Of a stretch of 64,000 nucleotides of DNA, positions 7,617 through 64,000 are shown piece by piece. Under the pieces are notes generated by a model, which saw only the letters and a list, made by a program, of their open reading frames with translations, was not told the origin of the DNA and made no database searches. Within the stretch, counting starts at the first letter, position 1. Each line of letters starts with the position of its first letter. The translations under genes and the position numbers were made by a program. This DNA is from Hyalella azteca. Lineage: Eukaryota; Arthropoda; Malacostraca; Amphipoda; Hyalellidae. The stretch is taken from positions 1-64,000 of the forward strand of contig NW_025944285.1 in assembly GCF_000764305.2 (NCBI RefSeq), read 5' to 3'.

Positions 7617-8735
7617 TTTTTATAAAATATCTATCCATAAAATGAATTCATATTTCATGTTAAACTACTTAATGAAATTATTGCGAAAAAGTGTTAACTG
7701 GCGAAATATGATCCATATTTATTTAGATGGAACAATTAAGCATGTTTGACGGTAACAAACCCGTGATATAAAATCTTAAATTTCCTGCAGACTGTTGATT
7801 CAAAAATGTGTTCAAGTGAAACGTATTTTCTGGGAATTTATACCAGATTTAAATTTTTTGCTGTGTTGCCCTTGCTAATTTAAAGAATACAAAGTATTTA
7901 TATCACACATCAGAAGAGCATAGGCGTTATAAGAGAATAAATGTTAAATACATTATCAAGAGTTACAAATGACTAAAGTTAGCATTTACTTCAGGGTAGC
8001 AAGCGTTAATGCATGAGAAGAACTTTCCCAGAGTCTCAGTGTAGCCTCTGCTTGATTTACATATTTGAATTGAAGTCGAATTATACTTTTATTGCAGTAA
8101 ATGGCCTGGATTGTTCGACCCGGTTTGTGAATCTAAAATTATTTTATTACGATCAGGTTTAAACTTTCAAACCCTGGTAAACTTTTGAACATCGACAGAC
8201 AAATATTTATAAAGCATTTTCAGGTCCAATCGAGGTACCGTATTTGAATTTTCTTCTGAATAAATTTCGCTTTAAACTGTAGAAGATTTCAGACTTATAA
8301 GAATTGAAATTAATTTTTAATGACAGCACTTTATTTTTAACAACAAATTAAATTTAATGTTGGTGTTCAGAGATTTCATGAATAAATTTGAGAGCAACTT
8401 TTAATTAAGTGCAGACAGATTTTTGTCACCTGAAGCTGTAAAATCAACAAGATTGTACTTGAGAGTACAGAAATCATTAATGCTGTTTAGCTATGAAACG
8501 GGCATCGATTTTCTTAATAGGAAAGTTACATTATGAGCGAAGATCATCCTCTTGGAGCAAGTGACTAAAATCGCTTAGAAGTTTCATTTTAAATTCGCAC
8601 AACTGAAAAATTTTCGTAAGCACTTGATTTCTAGACGTAAAAATTTCTTGTACTGAATAAAAGTGAATAATATTGCTTCATAAATTCTTCGTTGCTTCCA
8701 TAAAAAATAATAACGATTTTTATTTCATAATAAAA
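7617..8735. other. AT-rich non-coding sequence
   Basis: Very AT-rich, with no repeat structure, exon or RNA gene that I could support. Confidence 0.5.
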
Positions 8736-18005: not shown

Positions 18006-19016
18006 TTATTCAATATGACCACCCTTATTTTTAATGACGGCCTCCAATCTACGCGGGAAAGCTTTACAGGAGACGACGCATTTCTTGAGGGATCAAGTCC
18101 CATTCTCTTTTCAATTTAGACTTCAAACTATCCAAAGAATCGTAAGGTATTCTGCAGACCCTACTCTCTAAAATAACCCACACAGAAAAGTCGAGAGAAT
18201 TCAAATCAGGGCTTCCTGAGGGCCATTCATTTTTGCTAATGAACGCTGGGATGTGACCCTGAATCCAGTTTTGAGTCATGTTTGAGCCATGTGATGGGGC
18301 AGAGTCTTGTTGAAAACTCCATGGTGAGCCGTTGAAATGTTTACGGGCCCAAGGTAACAACACAGATTCCAAAATGTCCGAAATGTATCGCTGGCTGTTC
18401 AGTTTCACTCCTGAGGGGACAAAAACGAGTAGGGACCTCCCAGTGGCGGTTAACGCGGCCCAAACCATCACGAACATGGGATTTTGACGTCTTGTTGCTG
18501 TTCTGGTTGCCCCATATCCATCCCGACCCCAAACTCTGTCATTTTGACGGTTAACGCTTTGTTCAATGTCAAATTTTTCCTCGTCACTGAACACCAAGTT
18601 GGGCAGCGTGCAATCCTCAATGAGATCCAGAATGTGCTGGCATCTTTCGAGCCTCATTCGTTCATGACGGTCTGTTAGTTCATGCATTGTTTGCATCTTG
18701 TAAGGGCAGGTTTTGAGGTCATCTTTGAGGACTCTATATACGCATTGATGTCTGACTGACTCCTGCTCTGCAGCCAATTTTGCAGCTGAGCGACGAGGGT
18801 TTCTCCTCAACTTCTTACTCGTGTTTTTGACCAATTGTTTTCTTCGGACACTTCATTTCCTTCCTTGACCAGGTTGATTGCATGTTTCACCAGTTTCCTT
18901 AAATTTTTTACTACCTTCCACTCAGTATCACGACGAATTTGGAGCTTTTCTGCAATGACTGAATTACTTTTGACCTTTTCATGAAGGGTTACAATTGCAT
19001 TTCTATCTACTGCCAT
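18006..19016 (-). pseudogene. maT-like transposase pseudogene (IS630/Tc1/mariner)
   Basis: The N-terminal part (18,807-19,016) begins MAVDRNAIVTLHEKVKSN and resembles the first helix-turn-helix of this family. After a frameshift near 18,830 the frame continues with a second DNA-binding half (RRNPRRSAAKLA) and the catalytic core: VFSDEEKFD, QQDSAPSH and SPDLNSLDF. Counting 37 residues between the second and third aspartates gives a DD37D signature, which is the maT type. A second frame break near 18,070 separates IPQEM from the typical C-terminal PRRLEAVIKNKGGHIE, ending in TAA at 18,006. With two breaks the copy is non-functional, although all catalytic aspartates remain readable. Confidence 0.92.
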
Positions 19017-40445: not shown

Positions 40446-40803
40446 ACTGAGAAAAATTTGTGGGTTTGGATCACCCACTTAGATGGGTCAACCGGGCCCA
40501 AATAGCGCTGAACACACTTGCCTAATTTGTGAGTAATACTGACCTATTACTGGCCCTTCAAATTTCTGATATAACTCACTTATGGCGTTAAATAGCTCTT
40601 TACGCCACCCATTTATGATTGATACGTAGGAAGCATCAGGGCGTCAGAGTGATTTAACGCCAAAAGTGAGTCATACATGAAATTTGAAGGGCCAGTAATA
40701 GGTCAGTGTAACCCACATATATGGTAAGTGAGTCAAAAAAGTGCAGCGCTATTTGTACGCAGTTGACTCATCTATAAGGGCCTGACTCACCCATTTCTCT
40801 CAT
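40446..40803. mobile_element. 358-bp fold-back (long inverted repeat) element
   Basis: The two halves are imperfect inverse copies over most of their length. Outer ends read ACTGAGAAAAATTTGTGGG and the inverse of CCCATTTCTCTCA. Matching inner blocks include CAAATAGCGCTG and CTGACCTATTACTGGCCCTT followed by CAAATTTC, and both halves meet near TTTACGCCACCC. It has no coding capacity. The structure fits a non-autonomous fold-back or MITE-type DNA element. No clear target duplication was identified. Confidence 0.85.
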
Positions 40804-41120: not shown

Positions 41121-41385
41121 GTAATAATAATATAATAATAATAATAATAGCGGTTTCAGTGTTTAGTAGGCCGTAGGCCTGTCGCCGATTCTTAACATCG
41201 CAGAACATTAACAGTATTTTGCGGTCTCAACCTCGCAACTCACTGCCACAATTCTGCTGTGCTTAACCGCCCGGCCTCCTCGCCGATTCTGACCAGAAAC
41301 TGGCGCACAGAGCTGGGATCGAACCCGCGCCTCTCTGCTCCAGTCTTGGTACTCTGAACTTTAACCACTGGGCCACCCTGCCCAG
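41121..41385 (-). mobile_element. tRNA-derived SINE, minus orientation
   Basis: Reading the minus strand, the head carries a pol III A box TGGCCCAGTGG (41,365-41,375) and a B box GGTTCGATCCC (41,315-41,325) 60 bp apart, as in a tRNA. An unrelated body follows, and the 3' end is a (TAA/TTA)n tail at 41,121-41,150. Head, body and simple-repeat tail in this order are diagnostic of a SINE. The body (GGCGAGGAGGCCGGG.. to ..TGTTCTGCGATGTT) is shared with the opposite-strand copy at 41,680-41,910. Confidence 0.85.
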
Positions 41386-41435
41386 TTTTCGTTTGTTTTG
41401 TGGACAATACACTGGACAATAGCTTTCGTTTGTGA

Positions 41436-41700
41436 GGGCTGGTCTAGTGGCAATAGTTTTCGTTTGTGAGGGCTGGTCTAGTGGTAATAGTTTTCGTTTG
41501 TAAGGGCTGGTCCAGTGGTAATAGTTTTCGTTTGTGAGGGCTGGTCCAGTGGTAATAGTTTTCGTTTGTGAGGGCTGGGCCAGTGGTAATAGTTTTCGTT
41601 TGTGAGAGTGAGGGCTGGTCCAGTGGTAATAGTTTTCGTTTGTGAGGGCTGGTCCAGTGGTAATAGTTTTCGTTGGTGAGGGCTGGTCCAGTGGTAATAG
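41436..41700. repeat. 33-bp tandem array derived from a SINE head, 8 units
   Basis: Units at about 41,436, 41,469, 41,502, 41,535, 41,568, 41,610, 41,644 and 41,678 read GAGGGCTGGTCCAGTGGTAA followed by TAGTTTTCGTTTG. TGGTCCAGTGG is the A-box segment of the adjacent SINE, so the array amplifies an A-box-containing head. One further isolated unit sits at about 41,095-41,125, left of the minus SINE, suggesting that SINE landed within or beside the array. Confidence 0.9.
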
Positions 41701-41910
41701 TTCAGAGTACCAGGATAGAGCGGTGCAGCAACGGGTTCGATCCCAGCTTCTTGCGACAGTTCTGGTCAAATCGGCGAGGAGGCCGGGTGATTAAGTAACG
41801 CAAAATTAGAGCAGTGAGTTGCGTGATCGAGGCCCGTAAGAAGATGTGATTGTTCTGCGATGTTCAGGCTTAATTAACGCTGACACTCTGTTCACCGCAA
41901 TACCGCTAAA
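41680..41910 (+). mobile_element. tRNA-derived SINE, plus orientation
   Basis: The A box TGGTCCAGTGG (41,684-41,694) and B box GGTTCGATCCC (41,734-41,744) lie 50 bp apart. Downstream comes the same body as the minus copy (TCTGGTC..CGGCGAGGAGGCCGGG.., GTGAGTTGCG.., TGTTCTGCGATGTT). It is more diverged than the minus copy and lacks a clear simple-repeat tail. Its head is the last unit of the tandem array. Confidence 0.8.
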
Positions 41911-42564: not shown

Positions 42565-43389
42565 AGCTCCAGGAAAGCGAACGAAATCCACAGCACAACT
42601 CTGAATTTACGAGGAAGTAGAAATACAATGATGGTAGAAAACGAGGTAAGTTTGTATCTATACATAACATTTCAATCAATTATAGGGATCATAATGGCAA
42701 TTATGGAAATGTAGATCACGTATGATCATGTATGAGAGAGTGAATCTCTTGCATTTAGCACGAATTTAATCCAGAATGATGCTTGGCTTGTTTGCTAAGG
42801 TTCAAAGACACAAAATTTTCTAATCAAAGATAACCAGATCATGGATTTAAACCACAACGAAATGAGCTTGAATTCTCTGCTAATCCTTTTTAATATAAAT
42901 GAAAAGGAAAATGAATGTAGTATTATTCAAAATCTAACTTTACATTAAAATCACTGCTGTATTAAACAGTTTAATAGCACTAATGAAAAATGTAAATCCG
43001 CAAATCAAGATGCAGAGTAAAATTTTTTCGAACATGGGAAAAATTCTTTACTGTAGTGATTTCAATTCGTTGTTCGTGCCATTTTTTCTTGTGAACATCA
43101 TGAATCTCTTTGCTCACAACTAACTCGTTGATCACCAATTTCTGTACCTGCTTGCAACTTCGTTACCTCGAAGGACATAAAAACTCAATAGTTTATCTTC
43201 AAATATGGAACAGAAAACTGCGAATGAAAACGATGACTGCAATTATTTGGCTACACTCCTGTAAAAAAATTCTCCATATGACATGCGAATTGTGCGAGTA
43301 CATAAATCTGACATTCTTTCGGTAAAGACAAGCATTCTTTTGGTGAAGACTTCGATGACAATATTAATAAAAGATGGAAATGAAGGGGA
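42565..43389. other. AT-rich non-coding sequence
   Basis: No gene recognised. Confidence 0.5.
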
Positions 43390-43750
43390 AGGCTGTGTGA
43401 AAAAAAAGATAAGGAAGGCGGTGTGAAAGATAATGAAGGTGGCGTGAAAGACAGGCAAGGCGATATGAGAGATAAGGATGGCGGTGTGAAAGATAAGGAT
43501 GGCGGTGTGAAAGATAAGGAAGGCGGTGTGAAAGATAAGGATGGCGGTGTGAAAGATAAGGAAGGTGGCGTGAAAGACAGATAAGGATGGCGGTGTGAAA
43601 GATAAGGATGGCGGTGTGAAAGATAAGGAAGGTGGCGTGAAAGACAGGCAAGGCGGTATGAGAGATAAGGATGGCGGTGTGAAAGATAAGGAAAGTGGCG
43701 TGAAAGACAGGGAAGGCGATATGAGAGATAAGGAAGGCGGTGTGAAAGAT
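43390..43750. repeat. 21-bp minisatellite, about 17 units
   Basis: Purine-rich units of the type GATAAGGAAGGCGGTGTGAA, strongly strand-asymmetric (purines on plus). Variants (AAGGATGGCGGTG, AAGGAAGGTGGCG, GGCAAGGCGATATG) alternate in higher-order blocks. The 21-bp unit keeps all minus frames open and gives false Ser/Phe/Pro/Leu-repeat ORFs. Confidence 0.95.
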
Positions 43751-44227
43751 GAAGCAGACAGCGCGAGTTGAAAAAAAGACAGTGAGAAAAAGAGCGATGC
43801 TGGCAAAGCAAATTTTAATTATTACGAGAAAATATACTACGTTGTTGGTAGTTTGATGATGATCTTAAAAACAACTCTGATCAAGAGGATGATCCTAATG
43901 ATGCATATGAAATTAACATGATGGCGAATTAGACGTAAATGTAATAGCCTTCATTACAATGTTCAGTGTGACGACAGCAATGCTTATAAGTGTTCTAATT
44001 ATATTGATACGGAGAGGTTAACCTAATAGAACAAATATATGATAAGCTCTACAAACCAGTAACAAGATGTCATAGATGATAACCGGTGATGTCGAGTACC
44101 TACGATATTACCTAATGTATCGGTGATAAGTACCAGTGATTAGTATCGGTATATTATCACCAATATAAGTATCAGTGATATCAAGGATATTTTGTTCAGC
44201 ACGGTCTGAACCTCTACGCGATCAAGC
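43751..44227. other. Non-coding sequence between two minisatellites
   Basis: Nothing recognised except a short irregular GTGATAAGTACCAGTGAT-type repetition around 44,080-44,180. Confidence 0.5.
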
Positions 44228-44675
44228 CAAGCACGATCTTGAGCCCAGCACGATTTGAGCCAATTAAGCACGATCTTGAGCCCAGCACGATCTGAGCCCA
44301 GCACGATCGTGAGCCCAGCACGATCTTGAGCCCAGCACGATCTTGAGCCCAGCACGATTTGAGCCAATTAAGCACGATCTTGAGCCCAGCGCGATCTGAG
44401 CCCAGCACTATCTCGAGCCCAGCACGATCTCGAGCCCAGCACGATCGTGAGCCCAGCACGATCTTGAGCCCAGCACGATCTCGAGCCCAGCACGATCTCG
44501 AGCCCAGCACGATCACGAGCCCAGCACGATCTCGAGCCCAGCACGATCTCGAGCCCAGCACGATCTCGAGCCCAGCACGATCTCGAGCCCAGCACGATCA
44601 CGAGCCCAGCACGATCTCGAGCCCAGCACGATCTCGAGCCCAGCACGATCTGAGCCCAGCACGATCTCGAGCCCA
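44228..44675. repeat. 17/18-bp minisatellite, about 26 units
   Basis: Reiterations of CCCAGCACGATCTCGAG, with 17-bp (GATCTGAG) and 18-bp (GATCTCGAG, GATCTTGAG, GATCACGAG) variants. It is much more GC-rich than its surroundings. Mixed unit lengths shift the frame, so the long open frames through it are not genes. Confidence 0.95.
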
Positions 44676-45732: not shown

Positions 45733-45738
45733 TTTATT
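45733..45738 (-). promoter_or_regulatory. Candidate polyadenylation signal of the recoded ORF
   Basis: AATAAA on the minus strand, about 177 nt beyond the TGA at 45,915-45,917. Such a hexamer is common in AT-rich DNA. If used, it would indicate a transcribed gene. Confidence 0.3.
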
Positions 45739-45914
45739 TCCATTTGGACTTTCTTCTAGAAGATGCCTCTCCTAAAATTTTCTCCGCCGAAATGCTGTCT
45801 AAAAACATCAATCATGGCATGGTTTCCTTCGCCTAACGGCCAGCACGCGACGCTGATACATATTAAATTTTCAGTGACTGTTCACCACTCGAAACTTCTA
45901 TGAGTCCGACTCGG

Positions 45915-48900
45915 TCACTCGATGTTCGGGTAGAGCTGCACCAGACAGGGGTGCAGAGCGCGTAAAGCTTCGTGGTAATCGGCATGTATCCGCGCACTGG
46001 GGCCCTCATGTCGAAGTCTGGCCAGGAAGCCTCTTCTGATGGCGGCCACTGATCTATCCAATATTTAAGGCGGTAGGTTCTGTGTCTGCGTCATTTAGCC
46101 AGGATTGATTGGGACGCACGCTCTCCAAGCCCCTTAAACTATCTTATAGGCTTGCCTTGTTTAATTTTTTGGGTACGTACAATATTCGAATCGCTGAGTC
46201 TACTGCATAACAGGTTGGCCAGCAATAACTGGCAATTGACCAGAACAGCAATCGCCATTAAAAAGCTGGTTTTGCCGGCATTATTACAGTGGAATGCCGT
46301 TACCTCTGACAGGATTGTACATCGCGCGTCCGCAAGCTCCATGATAGTAAGTAGGAGGATCTTGTCCTGCAGCCCAGCAACACGAACGAAGGCAGGGAAA
46401 TCCAGATCCTGCCTACTCTCTTCGAGATTACGATGAACTTGGTTCTTCATTTGCCGAGCTTATCCGAGAGCTTCGCTATGTTTCAGAATCACTGGATGAT
46501 GGAATAGAAATACGCGGAAATTACACGCCCGAGTTAAAATCGTCCGATGTTGATTAAGAGCGCCTGACGTCCTGTCTTTCGGGACTAGATCGAATCATTA
46601 TCATTTGTCCTTGGTTTCCATTTCTACCATTTCCCATCACATTTTGACTCTATCCGGAATGACCTAATGGGTTGATCACAATATTGATTTGTTGCTATCC
46701 TGAAAGGTCACTGACGGCGATGGAAGTTGGAGATGATATAGGTTTTGCGTCCTTGTCACAGTTGCGCTTACTCTCTGAGACATGCGAGGAGCATCTTAGT
46801 TAATCGGTAGATTGGTAAGTCATATCCCTATTAGAATTATTCGTCTCATTCAGTTGAAGACCAGACTCACTGCTGTGCTACTGATGTGCTACAGTATGAC
46901 CTGAGTAACTCGACATAGGGCCACTTGACAGGTGGTGACTTGACTCACATTGACTCGTCATTGATCGACATGGAACGGTTCCTTTTTCGTACGGGGCTTC
47001 CTCCGCGTGGCTCGTTCTCAAATCTGTCCGTTGTTTATTCTCAATCGTTGTGCCCGAGTTTCTACGCTACTAGTTTGAATATTATGTAGAAACATCTTCA
47101 GTGATGACTGAATATTCTTAGGGTTTAGTCCTTAGAATCAGCTCATCGGTACGAATTCGGGAGGCTTGGTGCTGTTCAATTTCCTCCGCCCTGAATTATT
47201 CAGTTTCCTCTTTAATCTGTTGGAGATCAGACTTGTTGGAACGAGAAATCTAAGAAACCCGTGTTCTACGTGGCTCATCACTGCCAATCCGATTTTCACT
47301 AGTTTGATTTTAAATTTATTCTGTGTAGTATGATTAACGAGAATTTAAACTTGTACGCATTTCTGTATTTTCAGCATTCGTTTCATAGGCCGTCCTTGTG
47401 CCGTCAGTAGCACCACCCTCAAGACTAGATGTTAAATGCGATTATGGCAAATCTGATTAATTAGTTCTTCCCAATATCTAATCTTCGTCACTTCCTCGAG
47501 CTCCAGGGTGGGTAGAATGCAATTGTTGAACAAAATTACCAGTTGAAATATAATTTCTTGAAGCACCTGAACCATTTTGGGAGATTTTTAATTCCTGAGC
47601 TCTTCCAAAGTTAGTGACTCCCGTATCAGGGATCACTTGAGGAAACGAAGTCGATGAATTGGAATTGGCCGGTTGCGCAGATTGGTCATGTTACATGCTT
47701 TATCGAGTTTTAGAGAAAGTGTTGGGGTCTCTTGCTTGGATCAGTTCACTGCCCTCAGAATGCGGAGGAAAAAAATGCGGAATTCCGGCAGACGCTGACG
47801 AAAACTTTTAATTTTCTCTGGATTGCGGAATCAAATTTTCCGACTGATGGCTGAGAAGAGATCGTTAAGCCGTACCAGATATGCCTCCTCCTTGATATTA
47901 TGGATGAATTACCGAAGAATAAATTTCTTTCGTCGGTACAAGCTCGGTTGAATGTACTTCTCGTCTGCTGTCTCTACTCTCAGGTTTTTGCAGAGGGAAA
48001 GTACTCTACGAAATAGTTTTCTACACTCGTTGTTGAGATTCACTGCCATTCTGGTCCTCATTATGTAAATATTGATGATATTTAGGCTGCAGAGCCTTGT
48101 CTTATGAAACAGTTGGGGCAATTGTCCTCTAACTTCCGGATTGACTTGTTCTCGTTATTTCAGTTTAGCTGGGAGCATGTTAATAAAGAATCGGTTCTGA
48201 CGACGTTGACTACTACGTTTTCGATGGTTCGAAACTTTGTGAAACATGGGACGGATTGCTGTAGTACCTGTTAAATTGATCACTGCTCGTGCTCGAATTT
48301 GATGCATATTCTGGGGCAACAAACTAGGATGTCGAAGTTGAATGAGATGGCAACGAATTTATAGAAGGGTTGACGCGGACAAAAGGCTAAGACGGATTAC
48401 CGTAGAGTTCTTCTAAGTTTGCAGGTTATATTTATGGATTAAAATTATTTGTCTTAGTATTAGCTTCTTAGTTGTCTGGAACAGCCGTATACCTCTGAGC
48501 TTGGGAAGCTTAAATAACCTGAGTAGGTAGAGAATTTCCATTGACACTCGAACGTCCGGCAAAACTCATAGGGTCCATCAATGAGTTTTAAATCAATGTC
48601 TATTGCGGAATAATGAAGTTATTGTCAGGCTCTGTTTGATTTGTGTGCATCTGGGGTCCACTCGTAAAACGATTTCTTGATTTTTAAGAGGCAGAGTTTC
48701 CAATCGAAAATTCTGGTTGAGCATTGAAGTTTTGATTTTGAGATTAAGAACCGACAATTGTTGCCTAACTCGGGCGTTCCTTCATCGTGTCTTGAATTTA
48801 AGTCTCATCTTTGGTGGCATAGTTATTGCCAGACTAAAGATGATTTCTGTTTTCCATGGAAGAGCTGAAAGGAACGTGTGCTGGTCTCTGAGACGAAAAG

Positions 48901-50102
48901 TTGACAAGTTATGGACGAGGGCCGTTGACTTCTTAATTTTGAGATCTAATCCCACTTGTCCGCGTTTGTTTTTCTGTACCGTACAGCCCAGGAGTGTTTT
49001 GGCCATAGGTTTCACCGGATGCATTTTTTGAGCGTATTTATTGGTCCTGTTGATTTTCATACATTGTTTGGTCTTTGCTCCTTCGATTAAAATCGGGTTA
49101 ACTTTGGTATGTACCAACTGAAGAATCGGACTAGACGGAAGTCCACTAAATCTGGTCGTTTTGACCTCTCTGTGCATTTGTTTGAACAGCATTAACTTCA
49201 GATGTGGGAACCCTCCCTTATGACAAACGGTCATCAGTGGCGTAATCAATAGGTCTATTTTGCAGAGTAGCCGTTTAAACTTCAGGTATTCGTGCTTTCT
49301 GGACATGACGCCTCTAACGAGGTTCCTTGTTTCTGAGGAAGAGTGCATGGTCATTTCTTCTGTGTTTTTTCTTAGCGCCTCGTCTCGTTTATGCCATCAT
49401 CGCGTTTGGTTTAGTCGGCTGTAATGAGGGCGGTTGGAACTCATAGGAGCAGGACTTTCGATCATGATGGTTTCGTTGCATAGAATGCGGCAACGGTAAC
49501 TTCTCGCGCACTCCGCGGATGTCAAGCTCTCTTTGATTGCTATGAACTCCACTTTGAATCGTTGCGTAGTTGTTATTCACCGAGATGTTACCTGAGATGT
49601 GACTTTATAGATCATCTGATGATCTCTCTTGCGGCTCTATCGCCTTCTCCTGTAAAGTCTCTTGCAAACCTTGACATGTTTCATGTAACAATTTTAATAA
49701 CACCATTTTTTTCTCAACATCCATATTTCCAGTTGAAAGATAATCCTCAATCTATTATAGATCTCTCAGGTCGTTTCTTGTTCTATTAAACCCATCAATG
49801 TGAGTTTAAAAAGGCAGGCTTTACGAACGTTCCTCTTCATGGGGGAGTACGCCCTCGTTCAGCAGGTGATGGTCTTCGATATTTGCACGGGTTTCGTCTT
49901 TTGCCTTGAGTTACTTCGCACATAATGACTTAATGAAGGCCAATTTTTCTTAAATCTGGTCTCTAGGATAGGTTGCATTATTATCATTGCAGTTCAATGC
50001 TGATGGTGTCAATGGACCTTGTCGAGCAGCTGGCCGAATATTATCTTCGAATCGGCGGAGATTTCCGATGGGCGCATTTGCGGAGAAAGTTTCACTCATC
50101 AT
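45915..50102 (-). CDS. 1,395-codon open frame with 71 in-frame TAA/TAG and no TGA (TAR-recoded gene)
   Basis: From ATG at 50,102 to TGA at 45,915 I checked every codon of this frame: TAA occurs 47 times, TAG 24 times, TGA never before the end. Another TGA follows in frame at 45,882. Reading TAA/TAG as Gln gives about 153 Gln (11%), roughly 82 of them CAA/CAG. The protein starts MMSETFSANAPIGNLRRFED and has a charged helical stretch around residues 115-155 (KKMVLLKLLHETCQGLQETL). A long disordered Q/S/T/N-rich middle follows. The C-terminal ~160 residues are Cys-containing (CLRSCCWAAGQ, NGDCCSGQ) and carry an IQ-like VAAIRRGFLARLR near the end. I recognise no family. Recoded TAR could alternatively be Glu or Tyr, as in some ciliates. 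An earlier in-frame start is possible, since the frame is open up to the TGA at 50,442. Under the standard code this region would be called non-coding. Confidence 0.8.
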
Positions 50103-52225
50103 GGCATTCGAGAGGGGTAAATAATTCCTAGTACTTTCCTTGGCCCGAATAAAATTTATTATCCGAGATTTTAGTTCAAAACATGAGGCGCTGAACTCTG
50201 GTTATGTCTCGTGCTAGAGTATCTGGTATACAGAACAGCAGAAAAAGAAATAATCTTCCATTTGACTTGTCAATAAAAACTTGTGAAATGCACTTCTGTT
50301 CCGATTATTCAAGTGTTGTCTAATGCCTGACTGTATCCATGATTTCTCAGGCCTGACTATATCCATGATACGCGTTCTAGGGAATTGAATTCTTTGAGAC
50401 TTTGCAACTATATTTGAGATTTAGTAGCTGTTTATTTTCTTTCACCTTAGGAAACCAAAATTATTATGCATGACATTATGAGTTTATTATTATATCATGC
50501 AACCGTTTTATTTCATTCCTGCTCGAAACTATTTCGTGTATCTTGAGTAGCCGCCAATTAGCAATGACGGTTATTCAGCGGCTATTATCAATTTAATCAT
50601 ATTACGATTGAAAATAAATTGAGATATTTAATTCATGTTCTTCTTCCCTGATAATTTTCGCATTATGCATCCCGAATGCCGGCTGGTGATAGGCATCGGT
50701 GTTCAATTGTTCAGCGAACATTCTTAGTTTTTCGATTAAGAAGGAACGTAACTCGTATTTTATCCGTGTTCTGGCGATTTAGGATATTTAGATTGATGAA
50801 ATTTTTAGTCATGTTACAAAAACGGAACAAAATAATACAACGTAATGCAAGTCATTAACCTGAAATACAAATGAATATGATATATCATGCGATGCAGCTC
50901 ACCAATCGTTTCCCATTTTTTAAACTTGACCATCCCCGAATATGATAAAATCATCGTGCTATAATTTTGGGCTCTATGATATTTTCGGCTAATTCTTTCA
51001 TTGTACGCATTTACGTTGCTTTCATTTTATCTTCCAAGCATTTAATGATGATGGTTCCTACGAAATATTTTAAAACTTCGAATTCATTCATTGATTTTCT
51101 ACAGCGATTACCTACTTTATGCACGTGCTTCACTTTAATCATGTGAATCAATAATGAATGCAAGTGTATTGCCTTCATTGATTCTTCCAACGCAGTAGCA
51201 GTCGTTCAACCCTAAAATTCTATTCGAATCATTTTTAGCAAACCGAACTTTAAAAATTTGAGACTATAAGAATTGCAGATGGTAATATTTCACTATCAGT
51301 TATCCTCAAATCCCATTTAATTCAACAAAATCTATCACCAATAATTATTCAAATGAAATTGCCAAAAAAATAAAAACCAACTGAAAAAATAAAACTTAAA
51401 CTTCATATACTAAAAGGTCTTCTAGTAAGCGAATCCTCCTGTATAATGTATAGTTCTTAAAAAACGAGGAATGAAATATTTAAATTATTTATTTACTACC
51501 AAACAGCTTCCTCGGCCAGACGTGATGAAAAACGCGATCTATATAATTAGTTATCGACTGCATTAATTGTATGGAAGGATTTTAACTACGTCTAAAAGAA
51601 GCGTCCATATTTTTACGCAAAGAATATATAATTATCATATATATTTTAAAATAAGCGAATATTTCAAAAACTTTACGTGATGGGTAAAAAATGCAAATCC
51701 AATTTTGTAATCAGTAGCAAAAATGCTTTCACACCACACAAAACGATCCCACAATCATTTCTCTATTGGTCAATGTTATAATATATATAATATGATAGGC
51801 TGAATATAGCTAGAAAAATACATTTATTAGTTTGCGTTGTAAAATAAAAGTTAAATTGTCAATGAGTTCTGTTCATCAACTGGTTTTTGTTCATTCTATA
51901 TTTGTACAAAAAATTTTCACATTTATGGAAAAAAGGCGCTATTGTGCTCGCCATGTCCGTCCGTCCGTCCGTCTGTCTGTCAGTCCGTCTGTGACTTCAC
52001 GTTTTCGTCGACGAGAAAATGCGCTCCCTGTCACTCACTGCAGTGAGTACAGAGTTATATTTTTTAGGTGCAGTGACACTCGTGGGTAAACTAATCGAAA
52101 CAATTTGGACTTGTCTTGTGCGAACTTGACAGCTAACATTGAAGGTATAGTATAATAATTCAGAAAGCTCCAATTATTGCTATTTCTTTGTCTTCTTCGA
52201 CATTGAACAACCATTGCAGTCAGCC
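50103..52225. other. AT-rich non-coding sequence upstream of the recoded ORF
   Basis: The first ~340 bp (to 50,441) stay free of TGA in the recoded frame but lack its Q/S/T-rich character, so I treat them as 5' flank. No telomere repeat, transposon end or target duplication was seen at the boundary. A GTCC/GTCT simple repeat lies at 51,955-51,992. Confidence 0.45.
51955..51992. repeat. (GTCC)n/(GTCT)n microsatellite
   Basis: GTCCGTCCGTCCGTCCGTCT and then GTCTGTCAGTCC is a tetranucleotide run. Confidence 0.9.
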
Positions 52226-52647
52226 AGTATCGAACAGTGAAAATTCCATTAAAAGAGCTGTATAATTTCTTGCAGTTTAAATTACGACAACATCCTACTA
52301 AAGCGACGTTTAGTGCCATATTATTTTGTTTCCAGTATGGCTGAAAATATTTGTAGAGCCTCTTTCCGTAGGTACCATTCAAAACTTATTCTACAGCATA
52401 ATAATTGTTCTTTTCGAAGAAGCAAGGTCCAGTAATGCTGGACAGCCTTTACCGGTTGCCGATCCGTAAACTGTTACTCTTTCCCTGTGTTGAGGTCATT
52501 CACGAATTGGCCTAATGCTTAATATTAAATAGTAATGCATATTAGGCCTATTTACATCTTCATTAATATAGAAGCAGGCCACGTAACACAGCAAAACTTA
52601 TTGACATATTAGTTGTTGAACGAATCTATCGAATTTAGAAGGTCATA
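52226..52647. repeat. Left part of the outer copy of a 1.14-kb duplicated block
   Basis: Starts AGTATCGAACAGTGAAAATT and matches 52,805-53,221 closely throughout, then is interrupted after the TA at 52,646-47 by the inserted element. The remainder of this copy resumes at 54,135. Confidence 0.92.
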
Positions 52648-54132
52648 CAGGGTGCGGCGTGGGAACTTACTCTTTTAAAAAAATCACAAAGTAAAAAGTA
52701 TTAAAGATAGCGTTTTAATTCTTTCTTTTTTACAAAGAGCTACATTTAAAGTTTCGTTGGGTTTACTTACAAGTTTAATTCTTGAATATTACATCTTGTA
52801 GGTAAGTATCGAACAGTGAAAATTCCACTAAAACAGCTGTATAATTTCTTGCTGTTTAAACTGTGACAGCATCCTACTGAAACGACAATTAGTGCCATAT
52901 TTTTTGTTTCAAGTATGGCTGAAAATGTTTGCAGAGCCTGTTTACGTACCACTCAGAACTTATTGTATAGCATAATAATAGTCCTTCTCGAAGAAGCAAG
53001 GTCCAGTAATGCTGGACAACCTTTACTGGTTGTCGATCCGTAAACTGTTACTCTTTCCCTGTGTTGAGGTCTTTCCCTAATTGGCCTAATGCTTAGCATT
53101 AACTTAGTAAAGCATAAAAGGCCTATTTACATCTCCATTAATATAGAAGTAGGCTCGAAACACTGCAAAACTTATTGACATGTTAGTTGTTGAACGAATC
53201 TATCGAATTTAGAAGGCCATACAAGAATTTTATGTGTGTTGATATAATTCCAAGACGACTACGTCATTAAAGCTTATTTCCACACCTTCAATCTGGTACC
53301 CGCTTATTTCTACGCCACTTCAAAGATGAGTTACGTCTCTGTCCAACGCTGATCCTTGCAAGATATTTGAGAAACAGCTCTGAAATGGCACAATCGAACC
53401 AAAAGCAAGCACTCTCCAATATGTTCCAGCAAAATAAATTCATTAGAGATTAATTTTGTATGGTTTTGCTATCTACACGTCCGTTCTTAGCTCTAGCAGC
53501 GAATTTCAATTTCTGAATCCGGATAACGATCACTGACGCGAGATCTCACACCACAGTTGTCAGCTTAGATGTTTTGGATCAGGGAAACACTTACCGCTTC
53601 ACAAAACCTTAATATTTCATTTACTGGATAAAACCCCTTAGTAAACTATTCATAATTCAATCAAACGCTTATTAACACCGCGTTTCTGTTGCAAAATCGC
53701 TAAAACAATATTAAATTAAGTAAACGAGCAGAAGGAATTAAGTAAAGAAGTAAACGACATCAAATTAAAAGGTTCTTAGATCTAATGCATTAGGAGTACG
53801 ATTTATTTCTAAAATTATGCCAAATTTCAATGAAATAGCGTTTAATCCGAACATCATGTTCGCACAGGGGTTATATATACTTTCTTGTCACGATAATTCA
53901 ACTACTCTATTATCAATTTTCCAACCACAGATCGTTAAAACTTAAACTAGAAAAGTACACAGAGACTGCGAACGCGCGCTCCTCTCTCGACCACTGCATG
54001 GTCGCAACTGAACTGAGTGGACGAAAAACTTCATAGCCCGCGCACCATATTGCGCATGGCGCCACCTTCCTAGGACTAATGGCCGCCACGTGGCGCGCAA
54101 TTCAAATAAGTAAGTTCCCGCGCCGCACCCTG
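52648..54132. mobile_element. 1,485-bp TA-flanked element with ~32-bp inverted ends, carrying a copy of its own target block
   Basis: The left end CAGGGTGCGGCGTGGGAACT.. and the inverse right end CAGGGTGCGGCGCGGGAACT.. match over about 32 bp. TA flanks both ends (52,646-47 and 54,133-34). Unique element sequence is only ~157 bp on the left and ~190 bp on the right, so the original element was a ~350-bp MITE-like unit of Tc1/mariner type. The interior 1,138 bp is a second copy of the block into which the element is inserted. No transposase is present. Confidence 0.92.
52805..53942. repeat. Inner copy of the 1.14-kb duplicated block
   Basis: Begins AGTATCGAACAGTG and ends ..CAGATCGTTAAAACT, flanked on both sides by TA (52,803-04 and 53,943-44), suggesting it entered the element at a TA target. 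It is continuous at 53,220-53,221 (..GGCCATACAAGAAT), which is exactly where the outer copy is split. Both copies are about 1,137 bp. No convincing terminal inverted repeats or coding frame were found, so the nature of the block is unknown. Confidence 0.9.
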
Positions 54133-54134
54133 TA

Positions 54135-57714: not shown

Positions 57715-57978
57715 GGACATTTGCTCACCAAAGCTTGTCAGCAACCCTTGGTGAAGGCTGGCTGTGGGTGCCTGTGTTCGAGGACATCATAACGATAGTA
57801 ACGTGTAAAATGAATGGACATTTGCTCACCAAAGCTTGTCAGCAACCCTGCGTGAAGGCTGGCTGTGGGTGCCTGTGTTCGAGGACATCATAACGATAGT
57901 AACGTGTACAATGACTGGACATTTGCTCACCAAAGCTTGTCAGCAACCCGGGGTGAAGGCTGGCTGTGGGTGCCTGTA
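57715..57978 (-). repeat. 101-bp tandem repeat containing the piwi C-terminal codons, about 2.6 copies
   Basis: GGACATTTGCTCACCAAAGC starts units at 57,715, 57,816 and 57,917. The unit nearest the gene contains the piwi stop codon and the last 17 codons (through ..GVADKLW-type sequence). The two further units repeat that coding tail with small changes, together with about 50 bp of 3' flank (CGAGGACATCATAACGATAG). The array was therefore created by duplicating the end of the gene. Confidence 0.93.
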
Positions 57979-58037
57979 CCCGTCATGTAGGCGAGCTTGT
58001 GGGCGTAGAGACACGGCGCAGGAACGCGCACCGTCCC
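57927..58037 (-). CDS. piwi: piwi last exon (catalytic His, stop TGA)
   Basis: 36 codons plus TGA, acceptor GATTGCAG in phase 0. It encodes [20 protein letters not shown], with the fourth slicer residue His in YAHKLA, then [14 protein letters not shown] and stop. The last 17 codons lie within the 101-bp tandem array. The end is about two residues shorter than usual and lacks the common hydrophobic terminal tripeptide. Confidence 0.95.
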
Positions 58038-61000
58038 CTGCAATCAATTCCAGACGACTCGACAAATTGTTTTTAATGCATTTTGCCTATCCTCAACAAG
58101 CTAAAATAACGCGTCATTTGAATGTACTTAATGAGGTACTTTGAAAACTGACTCTTCAGTTCTTCTAATAATTTTTGAAGAAATACACTAGGCAGTTTAA
58201 AATGTTGACAAAAGCGTCAGCAGTTTCACTACTGCATTTTCTTCAAAAATATTTAGAGAACTCGCGTTTTCGCAAAAAAGGGAAATAAAGGAAAATAGAC
58301 TCGAAAAAAGGCTCTCAGTACCTGTCATCAGCCTGTGTTTATAGAATACCATTTTAATTCATTTCTCGAGGTTTTACAGACTTAAAAGACCAAAGTCCAA
58401 GGTTTTTACTGTTCATTTCAGCCATTTGATCGTGAGAAAACCTAACAAAAACACAAAAATAAGTTAATAAGAACAAAATAAGTTTGGTGCTAGCAACACA
58501 CACCTGCCAGTTAAAGTAGAGATGCGTGAGCTTGTACGTGAAGCACTGCAGCATGTCGACTGAGAAGTTAGAGCCGTCCTCCAAAATACTGTAAGATGTA
58601 GGCGAGACAGTTCCTTCTCTTACTTTCTGGGACACCAGGAAGAAGTCGTAACTGCAAAATGTACATTAAATCAACGCATTTCCAATGGTTAACGAAATTA
58701 ACAAGTTTAGAAACTAGACAAATTTCTCACTAACACAATGCCAGTATCAGTAGGAATATGGTTGGCGGCATATAAAAAGAACTTTCTTACATACGCATTA
58801 TTTTCAATTGAAGAAAACTGAACAAACCAATAAGGCAGCGTGATAGTCTTGTCGACTACGGTGCCAGGCGGTGGGTTGGCGAGTCCACCGCTACCCATGT
58901 CACGGAAAATTCGCGTGTTGATACGCTTGCAGACCACAACGAACACAAGGCATATCCCAGGGTTGATCTTGGCTAGTTCGCTCTGCCCAAACAGTGACGA
59001 GCGTCACCAATGCAAAGAATACACCACAACAAATGGATGTTGAGTTAACTAAACACTACGTCAATTGGTCAACTGACAACTATTCTACAACAGATATCAA
59101 GTTATATCAAGAAAAAAATTTCACACCAAAAAACCATTTACAAAATGTTTGTTTTACAAAATGAATAAAAAATACAAAATGTTTTACAAAATTACATTTG
59201 AATGATCGATAACGGTAACGGATCGATACGAATTTAGACACCTTTATTCAGCGTCAGAGTTTTAGGTATTGGTCCGAGTCTCAAACGATAGTTGAGACTG
59301 GTTGAATTTCTAATAATAAATAGTTATCATTCTTGCATTTTAAAATCAAGCATTATAATACCTTTATGGCTGGAATTTCCTGTTGCTTGACGTACTCGAT
59401 TTGACCTTCGCCAACACCGTCTCGGTAGACGACAACGTTGCGGGGATGGCATTTGTTGCGCTCATGATAGGCCTTCACAGCTTCTGTGGACACGCCATCA
59501 CAAGCATTTACATCTTGCCACCATATTATGATCAGAAAACATAACTATTGGATGTAGCCATTCAATAGCCATCTTTCCCTTAAATAGGACAGCCGGTTAT
59601 GTCTAGATAGTTGACAATTTTCCCCTCAATTGCACAATTCGGTTAAGGTCAGCAATTCAACGTACAAGCAACGGAATATCAAGAACTGGCAACCAACTCT
59701 GAATGCAGACAGCGAAGTTATTGCTGAGCTCTTCTTTGTTGTTGTGCTCGGTGACCTGGCCATAGTAATTAGTCAGCTGGGGATTAACCGACGAAACCAC
59801 AGCACCATAAGATTTGCTGGCCGTCACAGTGTCGTGGTACACGTCGTATCCGATCACCATGGTCGTCTGGAAATAGCGTGCAGATTTTTTTGAACGATGT
59901 GTGCTTCTCCAAAGTAGAAAAATGAATTGGATTACAAAAACATGGTTATTTGCGCATCCTAAAAAAGTAAGTCAAAGAGATTATGCGAGTGTATACGGGA
60001 AAAAATGAATACTGAGAAATTTTTATCAAATATGTACACACTTGTGCAGCTAATATGAAGGTGATAAGTTCATAAATTATCGGAAATCACCTATCAACTG
60101 CCTGTACCACAAGAACCATAAAAGAATATTTACTCAAATGAAAAAATTAAAACGTGCAGCCAAAGTATCACTTTTTACTTGAGATTCATGTTACAAGTCT
60201 CGATACCCTGATGAATAATCTAACCTTGGCTGGTTGCTTGACTTGCCATGGCTCGCCACCAAGTTTGGCATTCATTTGGATGGCGATTTTGGTTGCAATG
60301 GACATCAGTCCCTTCTTTGCAGGATTCACATTGGAAGCAAGCACGAACTGTAGGGATGAGTTAATATTGTACAGAAGTCAGATGACACTTAGAATTTCGA
60401 ACGGCTTTTTCCACTAGAGCGCCGTTGTGCGAAACAACGATGGAGAAAGATTCAGTTGAAACATCAAATTATATGCCGGTCGAGGCCAAGCCTTTTATTT
60501 CTGTTAATACACATCCAATATAAAAGAAACAAACCTTGGTATTCCATACAGACTTTACTTGCTTATATCACTACGTGATTCTGTTTCTAACACTTTATTT
60601 GTTTACGAGTGAAGCTTATGACCTTAATTAATGGTGAAATTTATAAATGCTGAAACCGCTATATTAGAAGCGACACGATAAATAATACTTGCCTGGCTGA
60701 GCACGCCGATGCTACAAGCGAGTTTCTTCTTCAGCATCCCGTACTTGTTCTGCAACTGGCGGTCCAAGATGATCATGATCATCTGGCAGCCCTGATGCTT
60801 CATGATCTCCTGCTCCGTCTCGTGCATTCCACTCGCCTGAACCATCTCCGGAGGCCTGATCTGTCCACATATCAGGCAACATATAAAACCATCGAAAATC
60901 TCTCTTAGAGAACATTAAGTAATTGCATCATTACGACGGCACAACTTACTATCATTACGACGACGGCTTAATTAGTGTAACTAACCATCATGCCGACGCT

Positions 61001-63090
61001 ACGGGCGGCTTGCTGAAGCATTTGGATGAAAGCGCTCACATCAGCGACGTTAATCCGTCCACCGACAAGAACCACCCAGTTGTTCAGAGGAATCGACACC
61101 ATCATTGACTTGTCTACAAAATTAATCAACAAGTTAGAGATTCGACAGGGAGTGTAATCTGACAACAGTCCGATACTTCTAATAGAAAAAATATCTACCG
61201 AATAGATGATGGCTCTTGATTACTGTACTCTTACCACTAATTTCCCTTATATGCGAGCTAATTACTCTTATATGTGAGAACTATTTGCTCAAAATTGCAA
61301 ACAGATACATGTAATACATTGAAAATTTAACGCTTCATTGTGAATCGTTTACTGAAATTTAAAATTCACATCTTTTCTTACTCCGATTCCCGGCCCCCGT
61401 GTTTTTACGATTGCATCATTGATGAAATAAAATTATCTAATCATATTACATCGACGGGTCAAGTATGCGCTCGATGATAAAAAAAAAACAATAATTATTC
61501 AACACACGCACGCTTCTTAAGCAAATCTAATAAATTACTGGGTTCAATCCGTTAACTAAGGGTTCTAAACCTGTTCCGTTATGCCTTCATCTCGGACGAA
61601 TAACTTATTCGTAATAATGCTTGCGGTCAGACACTTGCCAACGAGTAACGTCAGTTCAGAAACTCGTCAGTCCAATTGCACCCAGTGTATCAATTCACTT
61701 ACTTCGGCAGCCGAAAGTCCAGTCCGCATCATCAGCTTTGTACTGCGCAGACATTCCCCCAGCCAGCAAAATCTCCTCTTGGTTCATAACTCCTGAAGTC
61801 AGGCTCACCAAGTTGGTGTTCAGCTTTAGACCCCATAGCTCTAGATCCTTGCGCACCTGGATGTAAAATCACGGATGAGCATAGAGTAAGAGGCACCAAG
61901 CTCCTTATAGGAAAATTATTCTTCCTCATTCACTAAGCCAAAATTTTCAACAGCTGATCATAATATTAATTAGCCACAGGGTTTTTAGTAGCAATTACCT
62001 TATCTTCTTGCAAATCTTGGTTGAACTTTTTGAGAGCTGCAACTCGCCGATCGACACCCATCTTCGTGTAGTCAACGAGCCTTTTCATTTTGTGGAAATT
62101 CGTGCGGATGTCATCAGGTATGCCAGTCAACCTCATCAGCTCGGGCACCAGATAGATTTCCGTCATGCCACTTCTTAGCTGACGACCAGTAGGCTTGCTG
62201 TAGATCAGCGGTTGCGTCAGGTCCGTCACGATTCGTCGATGTTTCTGCACGAACCAAACATCATATCCTAATTTGGATGGGCACCGAAATTCTAGTGTTG
62301 CATGAACCAATACTAAATGATAATGATCACGGCTTAACAATGTGAACAAGACACAACTTGACATTGGGATACCACGCATATGAATTGACATTAAAGGTTA
62401 GAAAGCAAAGACGTTATAAAAAGAAATAGCACATAGACTGACATCTTCAAAGTATTTCTTGAAAGTGACCGTCTCGCCGCGGTGCTGGAAAGTCGACATA
62501 GGATTCTTGGTATCATCGAAGTGGTCGATGCGGTATGTGAGGTGGTTGTATTCAGCCATGGCGATCTGTCCTATCAGTAGGCGATCGCGATCGTCATTCC
62601 TCATCTGCAGACATTAATAACTCGATCATAAATTATAGCTGTAGCTCGCAGACGTCCTGGCATATTATGTCTACAAACCACTAATGAAGCAAGATTAGTT
62701 TTATAAGTGTTTATAAGTGTTCACCGTCGTGAAGATCTGAGGATAACGTTCTTACACATAACACTCTGTAGATATTTCGATACTCGAAAAAATAACTAGA
62801 CTTGCCACACGATACTACTTGTAAATAATACTCTGGGGTACTGAAAATAATTCCCATTTATCGCGAGACTACCTGAAAATCAAAAATATGCATCTAATAT
62901 TGATTAATCGTAGTTTATCACTCTTTAAATCATCTGATTTTATTAAAAAGCTGTCATCATATAATATACCGTTCTAATGTGATCCAGAATTGAAGTCTGT
63001 TGCTGGAACTTGTGAACTATATCCACATTCAAAAGTATTTTGTCCTCGTGCTGCCTGATGCTGGTCTGGACGCCAGGATACACGCGCATC
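57927..63090 (-). CDS. piwi: PIWI-clade Argonaute, 12 exons, 5' part outside the window
   Basis: Twelve phase-consistent exons (listed separately) encode about 601 residues: PAZ (fragment residues ~15-170), linker, MID (~240-330) and PIWI (~330-601). Slicer residues are present: D375 in VIGYDVYHD, the glutamate finger in KEEL (~412), D445 in VYRDGVGEG and H578 in LYAHKLAY. The MID 5'-phosphate pocket pattern Y..K..K and SQ is present in [14 protein letters not shown]. Known family role: germline piRNA-guided cleavage of transposon RNA, in nuage or nucleus depending on paralogue; I cannot tell Piwi from Aubergine type. About 250-300 N-terminal residues (Arg/Gly tail and N domain) must lie beyond 64,000 or in an exon I did not recognise. 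Glutamine is encoded only by CAA/CAG. The C-terminus ends KLW, shorter than the usual hydrophobic ..LYYL/FYL. Confidence 0.95.
58504..58651 (-). CDS. piwi: piwi exon (PIWI, VSQ..R.GTVSPT)
   Basis: 1 nt plus 49 codons, acceptor TTTTGCAG, donor CAG|GTGTGT. It encodes [20 protein letters not shown] and [13 protein letters not shown], conserved across Piwi proteins. Confidence 0.96.
58828..58982 (-). CDS. piwi: piwi exon (PIWI core, KRINTR motif)
   Basis: 51 codons plus 2 nt, acceptor TTTGGGCAG. It encodes [15 protein letters not shown] and [15 protein letters not shown]. The phase-consistent donor TATTG|GTTTGT joins to the next exon as Y-C-Y-D-F-F, whereas Piwi proteins normally have W at that point. 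The alternative donor TTT|GTTCAG would break the frame. Confidence 0.92.
59362..59483 (-). CDS. piwi: piwi exon (second catalytic Asp)
   Basis: 2 nt plus 40 codons, acceptor GTCCACAG, donor AAG|GTATTA. It encodes [20 protein letters not shown] then DGVGEGQ, the invariant YRDGV.(D/E)GQ motif. Confidence 0.97.
59698..59866 (-). CDS. piwi: piwi exon (first catalytic Asp and Glu finger)
   Basis: 56 codons plus 1 nt, acceptor TATTTCCAG, donor CAG A|GTTGGT. It encodes [20 protein letters not shown] and [15 protein letters not shown]. The Asp of GYDVYHD is the first slicer residue, and Glu in KEEL is the expected glutamate finger. Confidence 0.95.
60225..60347 (-). CDS. piwi: piwi exon (MID-PIWI boundary)
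   Basis: 41 codons in phase 0, acceptor CCCTACAG, donor AAG|GTTAGA. It encodes [20 protein letters not shown], the highly conserved I.TKI.LQMN.KLGGE.W motif. Confidence 0.96.
60693..60860 (-). CDS. piwi: piwi exon (MID, 5'-end pocket), followed by a GC donor
   Basis: 56 codons in phase 0, acceptor TGTGGACAG. It encodes [20 protein letters not shown] and [11 protein letters not shown]. The exon must end at CAG because the next exon starts in phase 0 with FVLAS. The intron then begins GCAAGT, a consensus GC donor. The nearby GT (CAGGCAA|GT) would break the frame. Confidence 0.92.
60986..61113 (-). CDS. piwi: piwi exon (start of MID)
   Basis: 2 nt plus 42 codons, acceptor TTTTGTAG, donor ATG|GTTAGT. 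It encodes [20 protein letters not shown].., matching the TPL.NW...Y.. motif that opens MID. Confidence 0.93.
61703..61856 (-). CDS. piwi: piwi exon (linker 2)
   Basis: 51 codons plus 1 nt, acceptor ACATCCAG, donor CGA A|GTAAGT. It encodes [19 protein letters not shown].. and [10 protein letters not shown], matching WGL.L..N.V...GRVL..E.I and the ADW motif. Confidence 0.93.
61999..62244 (-). CDS. piwi: piwi exon (PAZ end and linker 2)
   Basis: 82 codons in phase 0, acceptor TTCGTGCAG, donor AAG|GTAATT. It includes [34 protein letters not shown] and [20 protein letters not shown], characteristic of Piwi proteins (QPLL.S.P..R, LVPEL...TG, DYT...P..R...L..F). Confidence 0.95.
62443..62604 (-). 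CDS. piwi: piwi exon (PAZ core)
   Basis: 54 codons in phase 0, acceptor CTGCAG, donor GAT|GTCAGT. It encodes [20 protein letters not shown] and ..[17 protein letters not shown], the LVIG..V.T.YNN.TYRIDD region of PAZ. Confidence 0.93.
62970..63090 (-). CDS. piwi: piwi exon (N-terminal side of PAZ)
   Basis: An acceptor ATTACAG precedes G|ATG CGC, and donor ACG|GTATAT ends it in phase 0. It encodes [18 protein letters not shown].., matching the conserved WPG.VTSI segment of Piwi proteins just before PAZ. The first base completes a codon from an upstream exon not seen here. Confidence 0.9.
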
Positions 63091-64000
63091 CTGTAATCAG
63101 TCACGGTATCACACTCAATGAATTCTTATCATGGATACTTTGTGGCTAAAGTTAAAATTAGTTGAGTTCGCTCCTCAGCACGATGAAGTCGTCTACACTG
63201 TTGGAAACCATATACCGAAGATTTATCCACAATTTTTCATTTTTAGGAGGAACGCAATACACCAGTGTACCAACAAGAGAAAGCCTGTAACAGTACTACA
63301 TTTTCACATTAAAAGAGGTCATAGAAATCGTAAGTACACTTCATCACCACAGCCATTCTTTCTAACCTCTCATCAGACAGACCAGCATTCAATGCACCTC
63401 AACTACTACTCGGAGGTGGGAGGCGCACGTAAACATAACTGATTCGAATCGCAAGGTATCTCTCTCAGAGACGCTGAGATTAAGAGTATGATCTTATCAA
63501 GACTTATCTGCACTTCAATTCCAGCAAAAGAGGTTCTACACAGACGCATTATTTTAAGCAAGACAATCGGCACTTTACTTTGGATCGGATAGACATGAAA
63601 CCAACCTTTCATTTAAAAATGGATCGGATAGACATGAAACCTACCATTCATTTTAAAACCTTTGCTCTACATCAGACAACGACTAATAACAATCACAGTC
63701 TCAATACGAATTTCTTTGAAAGAGAATGCCTAGTCCTGGAATACTTTACTCGTACTCTAGGTGTCACATATCCCACAGGAGAGGATATCGACAGGTGTGG
63801 ATATAAGATTTTTATTTAATGTTGATTTTCCCCCCATAATAGGCAGAAACGAACTTGTCACATCAGCAATTCACAGAAGCGTCGCACAGTTCATAAAAAA
63901 ATCAACATCTCGAGGTAAAGCAAGCAAAAAACACCGTACAAACAAGTTTGGGAAGACGCAACACCATCTAAGTTATTTAGCTTTTGCATAGAATACCGAG
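63091..64000. other. Upstream piwi intron or 5' region, no exon recognised
   Basis: The next upstream piwi exon (the region before the VYPGVQTS segment) was searched for on the minus strand and not found here, so this is probably intron. Confidence 0.5.
63581..63657. repeat. 39-bp direct duplication
   Basis: TGGATCGGATAGACATGAAA followed by CC(A/T)ACC.TTCATTT occurs at 63,581 and 63,620. Confidence 0.9.

Follow-up and report, generated by a model that had tools for sequence, protein, structure and literature searches.

The stretch analysed here comprises the first 64,000 nucleotides of contig NW_025944285.1 in the assembly of the amphipod Hyalella azteca (RefSeq GCF_000764305.2), and is referred to throughout as the window. 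Its minus strand holds an open reading frame (ORF) that runs from ATG to TGA and stays open only if TAA and TAG (together TAR, or UAR in mRNA) are sense codons. A preliminary description, made from the letters alone, had drawn attention to this frame of 1,395 sense codons, with 47 TAA, 24 TAG and no internal TGA, to a further in-frame TGA behind its terminator, and to a deficit of TGA among its stop triplets. All of this is confirmed: the second TGA lies 11 codons beyond the terminator, ending at 45,882, and TGA makes up 36% of the stop triplets of the window, which gives a probability of about 2e-14 for finding it in 0 of 71. We refer to the frame as copy A, since it has paralogues; the features discussed below are collected in Table 1. 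Judged by eye, the encoded protein has a Q/S/T/N-rich middle, a Cys-rich segment and what we take to be an IQ-like C-terminal end.

Table 1. Features of the locus and of related loci elsewhere in the assembly. Positions are those of the window unless a contig is named.
Feature	Position	Strand	Remarks
TAR-coded ORF, copy A	45915..50102	minus	ATG to TGA
TGA terminator of copy A	45915..45917	minus	TGA at the aligned place also in paralogues B and C3229
Upstream stretch in frame with the ORF	50103..50246	minus	without indels in copies A, B, C and D
AATAAA, possible poly(A) signal	45733..45738	minus	177 nt past the TGA; chance occurrence possible
Copy B	C3772:115,870-119,355	minus	TGA-free over 1,162 codons, 36 TAA and 24 TAG
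Region homologous to copy C (contig C1345)	44197..53008	minus	homologous in pieces, flanks included
Region homologous to copy D (contig C2822)	47839..51593	minus	decaying copy; flanks included
tRNA gene, anticodon UUA	C4613:69,560-69,631		
tRNA gene, anticodon CUA	C4613:68,614-68,684		
tRNA gene, anticodon UCA	C4613:82,826-82,896		one base shorter than the UUA gene
Second eRF1-like gene	C4694, about 42,818-44,125		intronless, intact, 435 codons, TGA stop
Piwi gene	57927..63104	minus	intron-rich, standard code; nearest Hyalella azteca HAZT_HAZT007226

The ORF frame is real. The TGA-free frame around it extends over 1,508 codons (45,918-50,441) and is the sole such frame of at least 450 codons in the window, while the longest among 200 order-3 Markov windows reached 646 codons; a chance origin is rejected by this length and by the absence of TGA among the 71 stop triplets. 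The three-base periodicity of the ORF reaches 18.1 and does not exceed 4.2 in any of 51 other pieces; taken in five equal parts (2.7, 6.6, 6.4, 6.9 and 1.4) it is pronounced in the central three and weak in the two outermost. When stop triplets are left out of the scoring, the ORF frame comes top of the six in 12 of the 16 segments overlapping the ORF, without a break over codons 260-1375; over the first 259 codons and the final 20 the six frames are not separated. Trained on the ORF, a codon model gives it a score of 238, does not exceed 30 elsewhere in the window and finds no second TAR-coded gene there. The TAR codons are spread through the ORF as at random, with an A:G ratio in the third position (47:24) resembling that of other AR boxes, such as CAA and CAG (CAR; 58:25). 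A programmed readthrough context was considered and rejected, the flanks of TAR codons not differing from those of CAR codons at any of seven positions compared (P 0.12-0.88). The silent sites of the ORF match the noncoding composition of the host (600 four-fold sites, P 0.09), as do its flanks, and the window is without any N, which is present in other stretches of the assembly.

There is a hint that coding may begin upstream of the ATG, possibly in an exon that would start after a CAG at about 50,223. The adjoining stretch free of indels in all four copies shows 7, 5 and 14 differences between A and B at the three frame positions; the codon model gives no coding signal over 50,163-50,441. 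No Pfam or NCBIfam profile matches the copy A protein, transposase and reverse transcriptase (RT) profiles included, and its best match among solved structures has an expectation value (E) of 0.63. Single-sequence AlphaFold models are poor, with a mean predicted local distance difference test score (pLDDT) of 43 and 47. No homologue was found in a large protein library with many animal proteins (3,481 and 488 candidates), in a search that requires shared five-residue words and similar length and that distant or fragmented relatives may escape, and no relative was found in viral and prokaryote contigs.

Searching the window's own assembly (518,993,365 bases in 4,890 contigs) with the ORF protein returned 19 matching stretches on six contigs, the window's included, and in-frame TAR codons occur in 17 of the 19. 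The five other contigs are 69-494 kb each. Copy B terminates in the same end residues as copy A, followed by TGA; contig C3570 carries the 3' part only, 96% identical to copy B. On C3229 lies an old paralogue homologous to the C-terminal part, at 38% identity, with in-frame TAR and a TGA end. The extremes of divergence among the copies are 4%, in DNA, for B and C3570 and 62%, in protein, for A and C3229. As the flanks of copy C are homologous too, the ORF belongs to a segmental duplication in the host genome. The surroundings of copies B, C and C3570 contain standard-code reading frames that, by eye, we take to be RT-like and MADF-like. A 17-bp minisatellite is common to the flank of the ORF (window 44225-44675) and the flank of copy C on C1345 (about 8389-8569 of stretch L011).

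These paralogues bear directly on the possibility, raised in part by the preliminary description, that the frame belongs to a ciliate, or to another protist reading TAR as glutamine, and entered the contig by chimeric assembly or very recent insertion. Some ciliates, along with a few protists of other groups, do read TAR as glutamine and stop at TGA (PMC5304391), the ORF has no homologue in a library rich in animal proteins, and there is a precedent for epibiont contamination in the rotifer genes described from gammarid transcriptomes (PMC10597677). We nevertheless regard such an origin as very unlikely. An assembly chimera or contaminant would be expected to confine the gene to one place with abrupt borders, which is contradicted by paralogues on five other contigs and by the window's flanks around two of them; nor would it account for the decaying copies, for the range of divergence among them, or for the suppressor-type tRNA genes present in the same assembly. 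The flanks near the frame match the host in composition, and the window has no second gene of this kind. Ciliate telomere motifs were sought at 42-54 kb, where there is no CCCCAA, no CCCCAAAA and no TTTTGGGG, and two TTGGGG lie inside the ORF. Phyllopharyngean ciliates were rejected as donors, as those reported mostly stop at TAA (PMC6920121).

Alternatively, the family may have begun long ago as a mobile element, or as a gene captured from a TAR-coded source, whose copies spread through the amphipod genome and are translated with suppressor tRNAs of the host or of the element itself. This makes the same decoding claim as the explanation we favour below and differs from it in origin. The number of copies, the reduction of some to a 3' part (C3570 and C3229), the start of one at window 50,246 and the lack of a known homologue would all be in keeping with it. 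Yet neither transposase nor RT profiles match the protein, additional flank accompanies copies C and D in the manner of a segmental duplication, and the sole inverted pair around the ORF (26 nt, 73%, at 45,328 and 50,150) is taken as chance, target-site duplications not having been searched for; we think this origin unlikely.

The comparison of copies shows that the frames of A and B have been maintained through both substitutions and indels. Over 1,076 aligned codons A and B are 69.5% identical, with a synonymous divergence (dS) of 0.31, a nonsynonymous divergence (dN) of 0.17 and a dN/dS of about 0.55. All 16 indels between them are multiples of three, among them indels of 753 and 117; the ORF differs by 14-20% according to codon position, against 25% in the stretch past the stop. 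Neither copy has an internal TGA, so that in both TAA and TAG occur inside the frame and TGA at its end only. Copy D, by comparison, has 12 frame-breaking indels out of 15 and, over 734 aligned codons, 3 TGA (in-frame indels 16/16 against 3/15, Fisher 3e-6), and copy C has 10 of 27 out of frame and 1 TGA in 1,156 codons. Relative to A, copies B and C have twelve indels in common, each of them a multiple of three. The frameshifts and accumulation of all three stops by which a pseudogene is recognised are seen in C and D and not in A and B. Changes private to one copy include four TAR gains in B (three from CAR and one from Lys) and, in A, whose branch is not rooted, at least 12 gains (five from Lys, two from CAR and five others) and at least nine losses. 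Among private single-step changes the ratio of synonymous to nonsynonymous is 56:126 in A, 34:55 in B and 32:73 in C, from which we conclude that the gene evolves quickly under mild constraint. The split between A and D can be followed over 702 codons with B and C as outgroup: since then D has acquired nine indels, all out of frame, and two Arg-to-TGA changes, and A has acquired indels of 3, 3, 3 and 4, no TGA, two TAR gains and three TAR losses, with two indels of 8 not placed on either branch.

The same comparison makes it exceedingly unlikely that the ORF is a dead glutamine-rich gene whose CAR codons turned into TAR through C-to-T decay, whether by deamination or by a process like repeat-induced point mutation. 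CAR and TAR codons are intermixed, as such decay would leave them. However, the dinucleotide CpA is not depleted (observed/expected 1.04), and decay of this kind would equally make CGA into TGA, yet 19 CGA codons remain and there is no TGA (P 8e-6). Nor would a decaying gene keep every A-B indel in frame, and TAR exchanges also with Lys and Ser codons.

That TAR is sense is also supported by what stands opposite it in the paralogues, where glutamine is the best residue and Lys, between A and B, comes close. Glutamine scores top of the 20 residues over 52 pairs of TAR against a sense codon, by a method that is rough, since in controls on five codon classes, with their own residue left out, the true residue ranked 3-7. 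The 57 TAR codons of copy A that align to B face 38 TAR, six Lys, four CAR, three Ser and six others. Counted in both directions, the 38 sense counterparts between A and B are nine Gln, eight Lys, six Ser, five Leu and ten others, and in the comparison with C3229 Gln occupies 5 of 14 columns; it ranks first in both sets. TAR and CAR exchange at a frequency (9/99) near that of T and C at two-fold third positions (23/171).

Candidate readers of such codons are encoded in the same assembly. A tRNA-Gln-like query returned 14 genes, namely four with anticodon UUG, seven with CUG and one each with UUA, CUA and UCA. Querying with the UUA gene itself gave exactly three genes (E up to 0.001), all on contig C4613, the CUA and UCA genes being 94% and 96% identical to it. 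All three are called as tRNA by ARAGORN, each is followed by TTTT, and among the tRNAs in the fetched stretches they are nearest to tRNA-Gln, with 54-56 matching positions. Genes with the UUA and CUA anticodons, expected of the suppressor tRNAs that the preliminary description had suggested looking for, are thus both present, and are Gln-like by a small margin. A search by sequence pattern for tRNA-Gln genes carrying suppressor anticodons had given 11 sites, of which four are ordinary tRNA-Gln(UUG) and seven no tRNA, and is uninformative alone, its reversed control giving 13. Local comparison with the UUA gene picks out two weaker pieces on C4613, one of which, at about 77,927-78,000, is called Ile(GAU) by ARAGORN and is 76% identical to the UUA tRNA over 66 nt; it may be one more member of the set, now drifting.

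The assembly also holds a second, divergent eRF1-like gene on contig C4694. It keeps the GGQ and NIKS motifs, eukaryotic eRF1 proteins are its closest matches among solved structures (E 4e-85), and it has no TAR in its 435 codons. At what we take to be positions 58, 59 and 65 of human eRF1, Thr is replaced by Arg, Ala by Ser and Arg by Asp. A third eRF1-related locus, on C339, looks by eye like pelota. Motif changes around NIKS are described as typically accompanying altered codes (PMC5304391).

There are, then, several copies, two of them with shared flanks, two intact frames, and three genes nearest to tRNA-Gln together on C4613. The explanation that we consider probable is that the ORF is a duplicated nuclear gene of the amphipod in which UAA and UAG are sense and UGA is stop, likely to be read as glutamine by suppressor tRNAs of the same genome. 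Of the options in the preliminary description it was a locally decoded host gene that fits, given the paralogues, the flanks shared by two of them, the intact second copy, the decaying sisters and the suppressor-type tRNA genes. In such a system the UUA and CUA tRNAs would insert glutamine at UAA and UAG of the family's mRNA wherever they are expressed, and UGA would end translation; on this inference, the C4613 tRNAs would be transcribed, aminoacylated with glutamine and employed in translating the ORF mRNA. Decoding would have to be highly efficient, either through very abundant tRNAs or through weakened termination at UAR, because an efficiency of 0.9 per codon would yield only 0.06% of full-length product. 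The second eRF1 is a candidate for weakened termination: speculatively, it or a limitation to certain cell types may lower termination at UAR while sparing ordinary genes that stop at UAR.

Several observations weigh against this explanation. By calculation, readthrough of 99% at each of 71 UAR codons would let 49% of ribosomes pass, and at 90% just the fraction given above. The code is known from one gene family alone, and 111,608 bases of fetched stretches gave no convincing further TAR-coded gene; the long periodic frame in one of them, L023, was discarded as low-complexity repeats with a run of N. The Ile(GAU)-called tRNA on the same contig follows close behind tRNA-Gln in its likeness to the three C4613 genes (52-54 positions), a small margin; the lowest-energy fold of the CUA slice is not a cloverleaf; and the UCA anticodon would read UGA, the stop codon of the ORF itself. 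A canonical multi-exon eRF1 with TASNIKS is present on C1960. TAR usage in the ORF is somewhat below neutral expectation (0.46 against 0.56, P 0.015). Since the A-D split the changes in A have been spread evenly across the three codon positions (28, 33 and 30) and comprise 11 synonymous to 27 nonsynonymous, so that residue constraint is not visible over that period; one of its indels is the one of 4 nt, and over so short a time the absence of TGA in A is not significant alone. Finally, Lys nearly equals the score of Gln between A and B and is the commonest sense counterpart of copy A's own TAR codons, and the within-protein context at TAR leaned to Glu, in a comparison without power in which Gln, Glu and Tyr are not separable. 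This lean, and the place of Lys as second commonest counterpart (8/38, with Gln at 9), are also the grounds for supposing that TAR is sense but stands for another residue, Lys or Glu, or for a mixture inserted by near-cognate tRNAs. With glutamine first in both comparisons, and the UUA and CUA tRNAs nearest to tRNA-Gln, by a small margin, among those compared, we find this distinctly unlikely.

The proposed decoding has analogues in other organisms. It resembles the ciliate nuclear code in its sense UAA and UAG, with glutamine as best residue, its UGA stop and its tRNA-Gln-like UUA and CUA genes, and that code (NCBI table 6) is also described from hexamitin diplomonads, some ulvophyte algae and some oxymonads (PMC5304391). 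Unlike in ciliates, the organism is an animal, its Piwi gene keeps the standard code and a canonical eRF1 is present. The code is clearly not used by the whole nuclear genome, since the 525 codons in aligned pieces of Piwi exons include 30 for Gln, every one of them CAR, and the second eRF1 is free of TAR. Programmed stop-codon readthrough occurs in animals, for example in Drosophila genes. It likewise involves stop codons translated in animal mRNA, as we suppose here, but it differs from the present case, which has 71 such codons in one frame, no local TAR context and matching tRNA genes. Phages with genetic code 15 read TAG as glutamine (PMC9523058), and similarly present a gene set on another code inside an otherwise standard-code cell; the H. 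azteca gene is by contrast a nuclear animal gene using both UAA and UAG, with no relative in viral contigs. In Condylostoma stops are context-dependent, position in the mRNA deciding throughout the genome. Blastocrithidia also has context-dependent stops (PMC5304391). As in these two, one and the same codon would terminate at certain sites and be read as sense elsewhere within a single organism, though here it is one gene family that departs from the ordinary genes examined.

We know of no animal that reassigns stop codons in its nuclear genes. Across titles and the openings of abstracts in the open-licence literature, preprints excluded, we found no report of such reassignment. A broader possibility, which we advance tentatively and with a slight lean towards doubt, is that there are two nuclear codes in one animal: suppressor tRNAs (UUA, CUA and perhaps UCA) and a second eRF1 recognising UGA only would switch some cells to a ciliate-like code for a group of genes with abundant UAA and UAG codons. 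If the decoding is as proposed, a second code would coexist with the standard code in one genome, how codon reassignment starts could be put to direct test in a crustacean amenable to rearing, and ordinary annotation would miss TAR-coded genes, taking them as broken.

With the Piwi gene as query, 1,452 proteins matched at an E of 0.001 or below; scoring covered the 7,993 candidates that had most words in common with it, and 120 were listed. Among the matches listed the best is from Hyalella azteca, with 10 of 13 aligned stretches 85-100% identical and the others 67, 75 and 83%, which places the host among amphipods close to that species. The silent sites of the Piwi gene depart from the host noncoding composition (P 1e-9). 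At 57715-57977 a 101-bp unit from the end of a late Piwi exon forms a tandem repeat, with a splice-donor-like GGTGAGC after copies. A Mariner-like transposase at 18064-18834, with a weak DDE_3 match, uses the standard code and has an apparent frameshift near its end. At 41191-41867 and 40480-40774 an inverted pair of units, by eye tRNA-derived and like short interspersed elements, surrounds a 34-bp tandem array, and there is a 295-bp palindrome. An element with 34-bp inverted ends of the GGGTGCGGCGTGGGAACTTA type occupies 52646-54134 and overlaps a 0.7-kb direct repeat pair.

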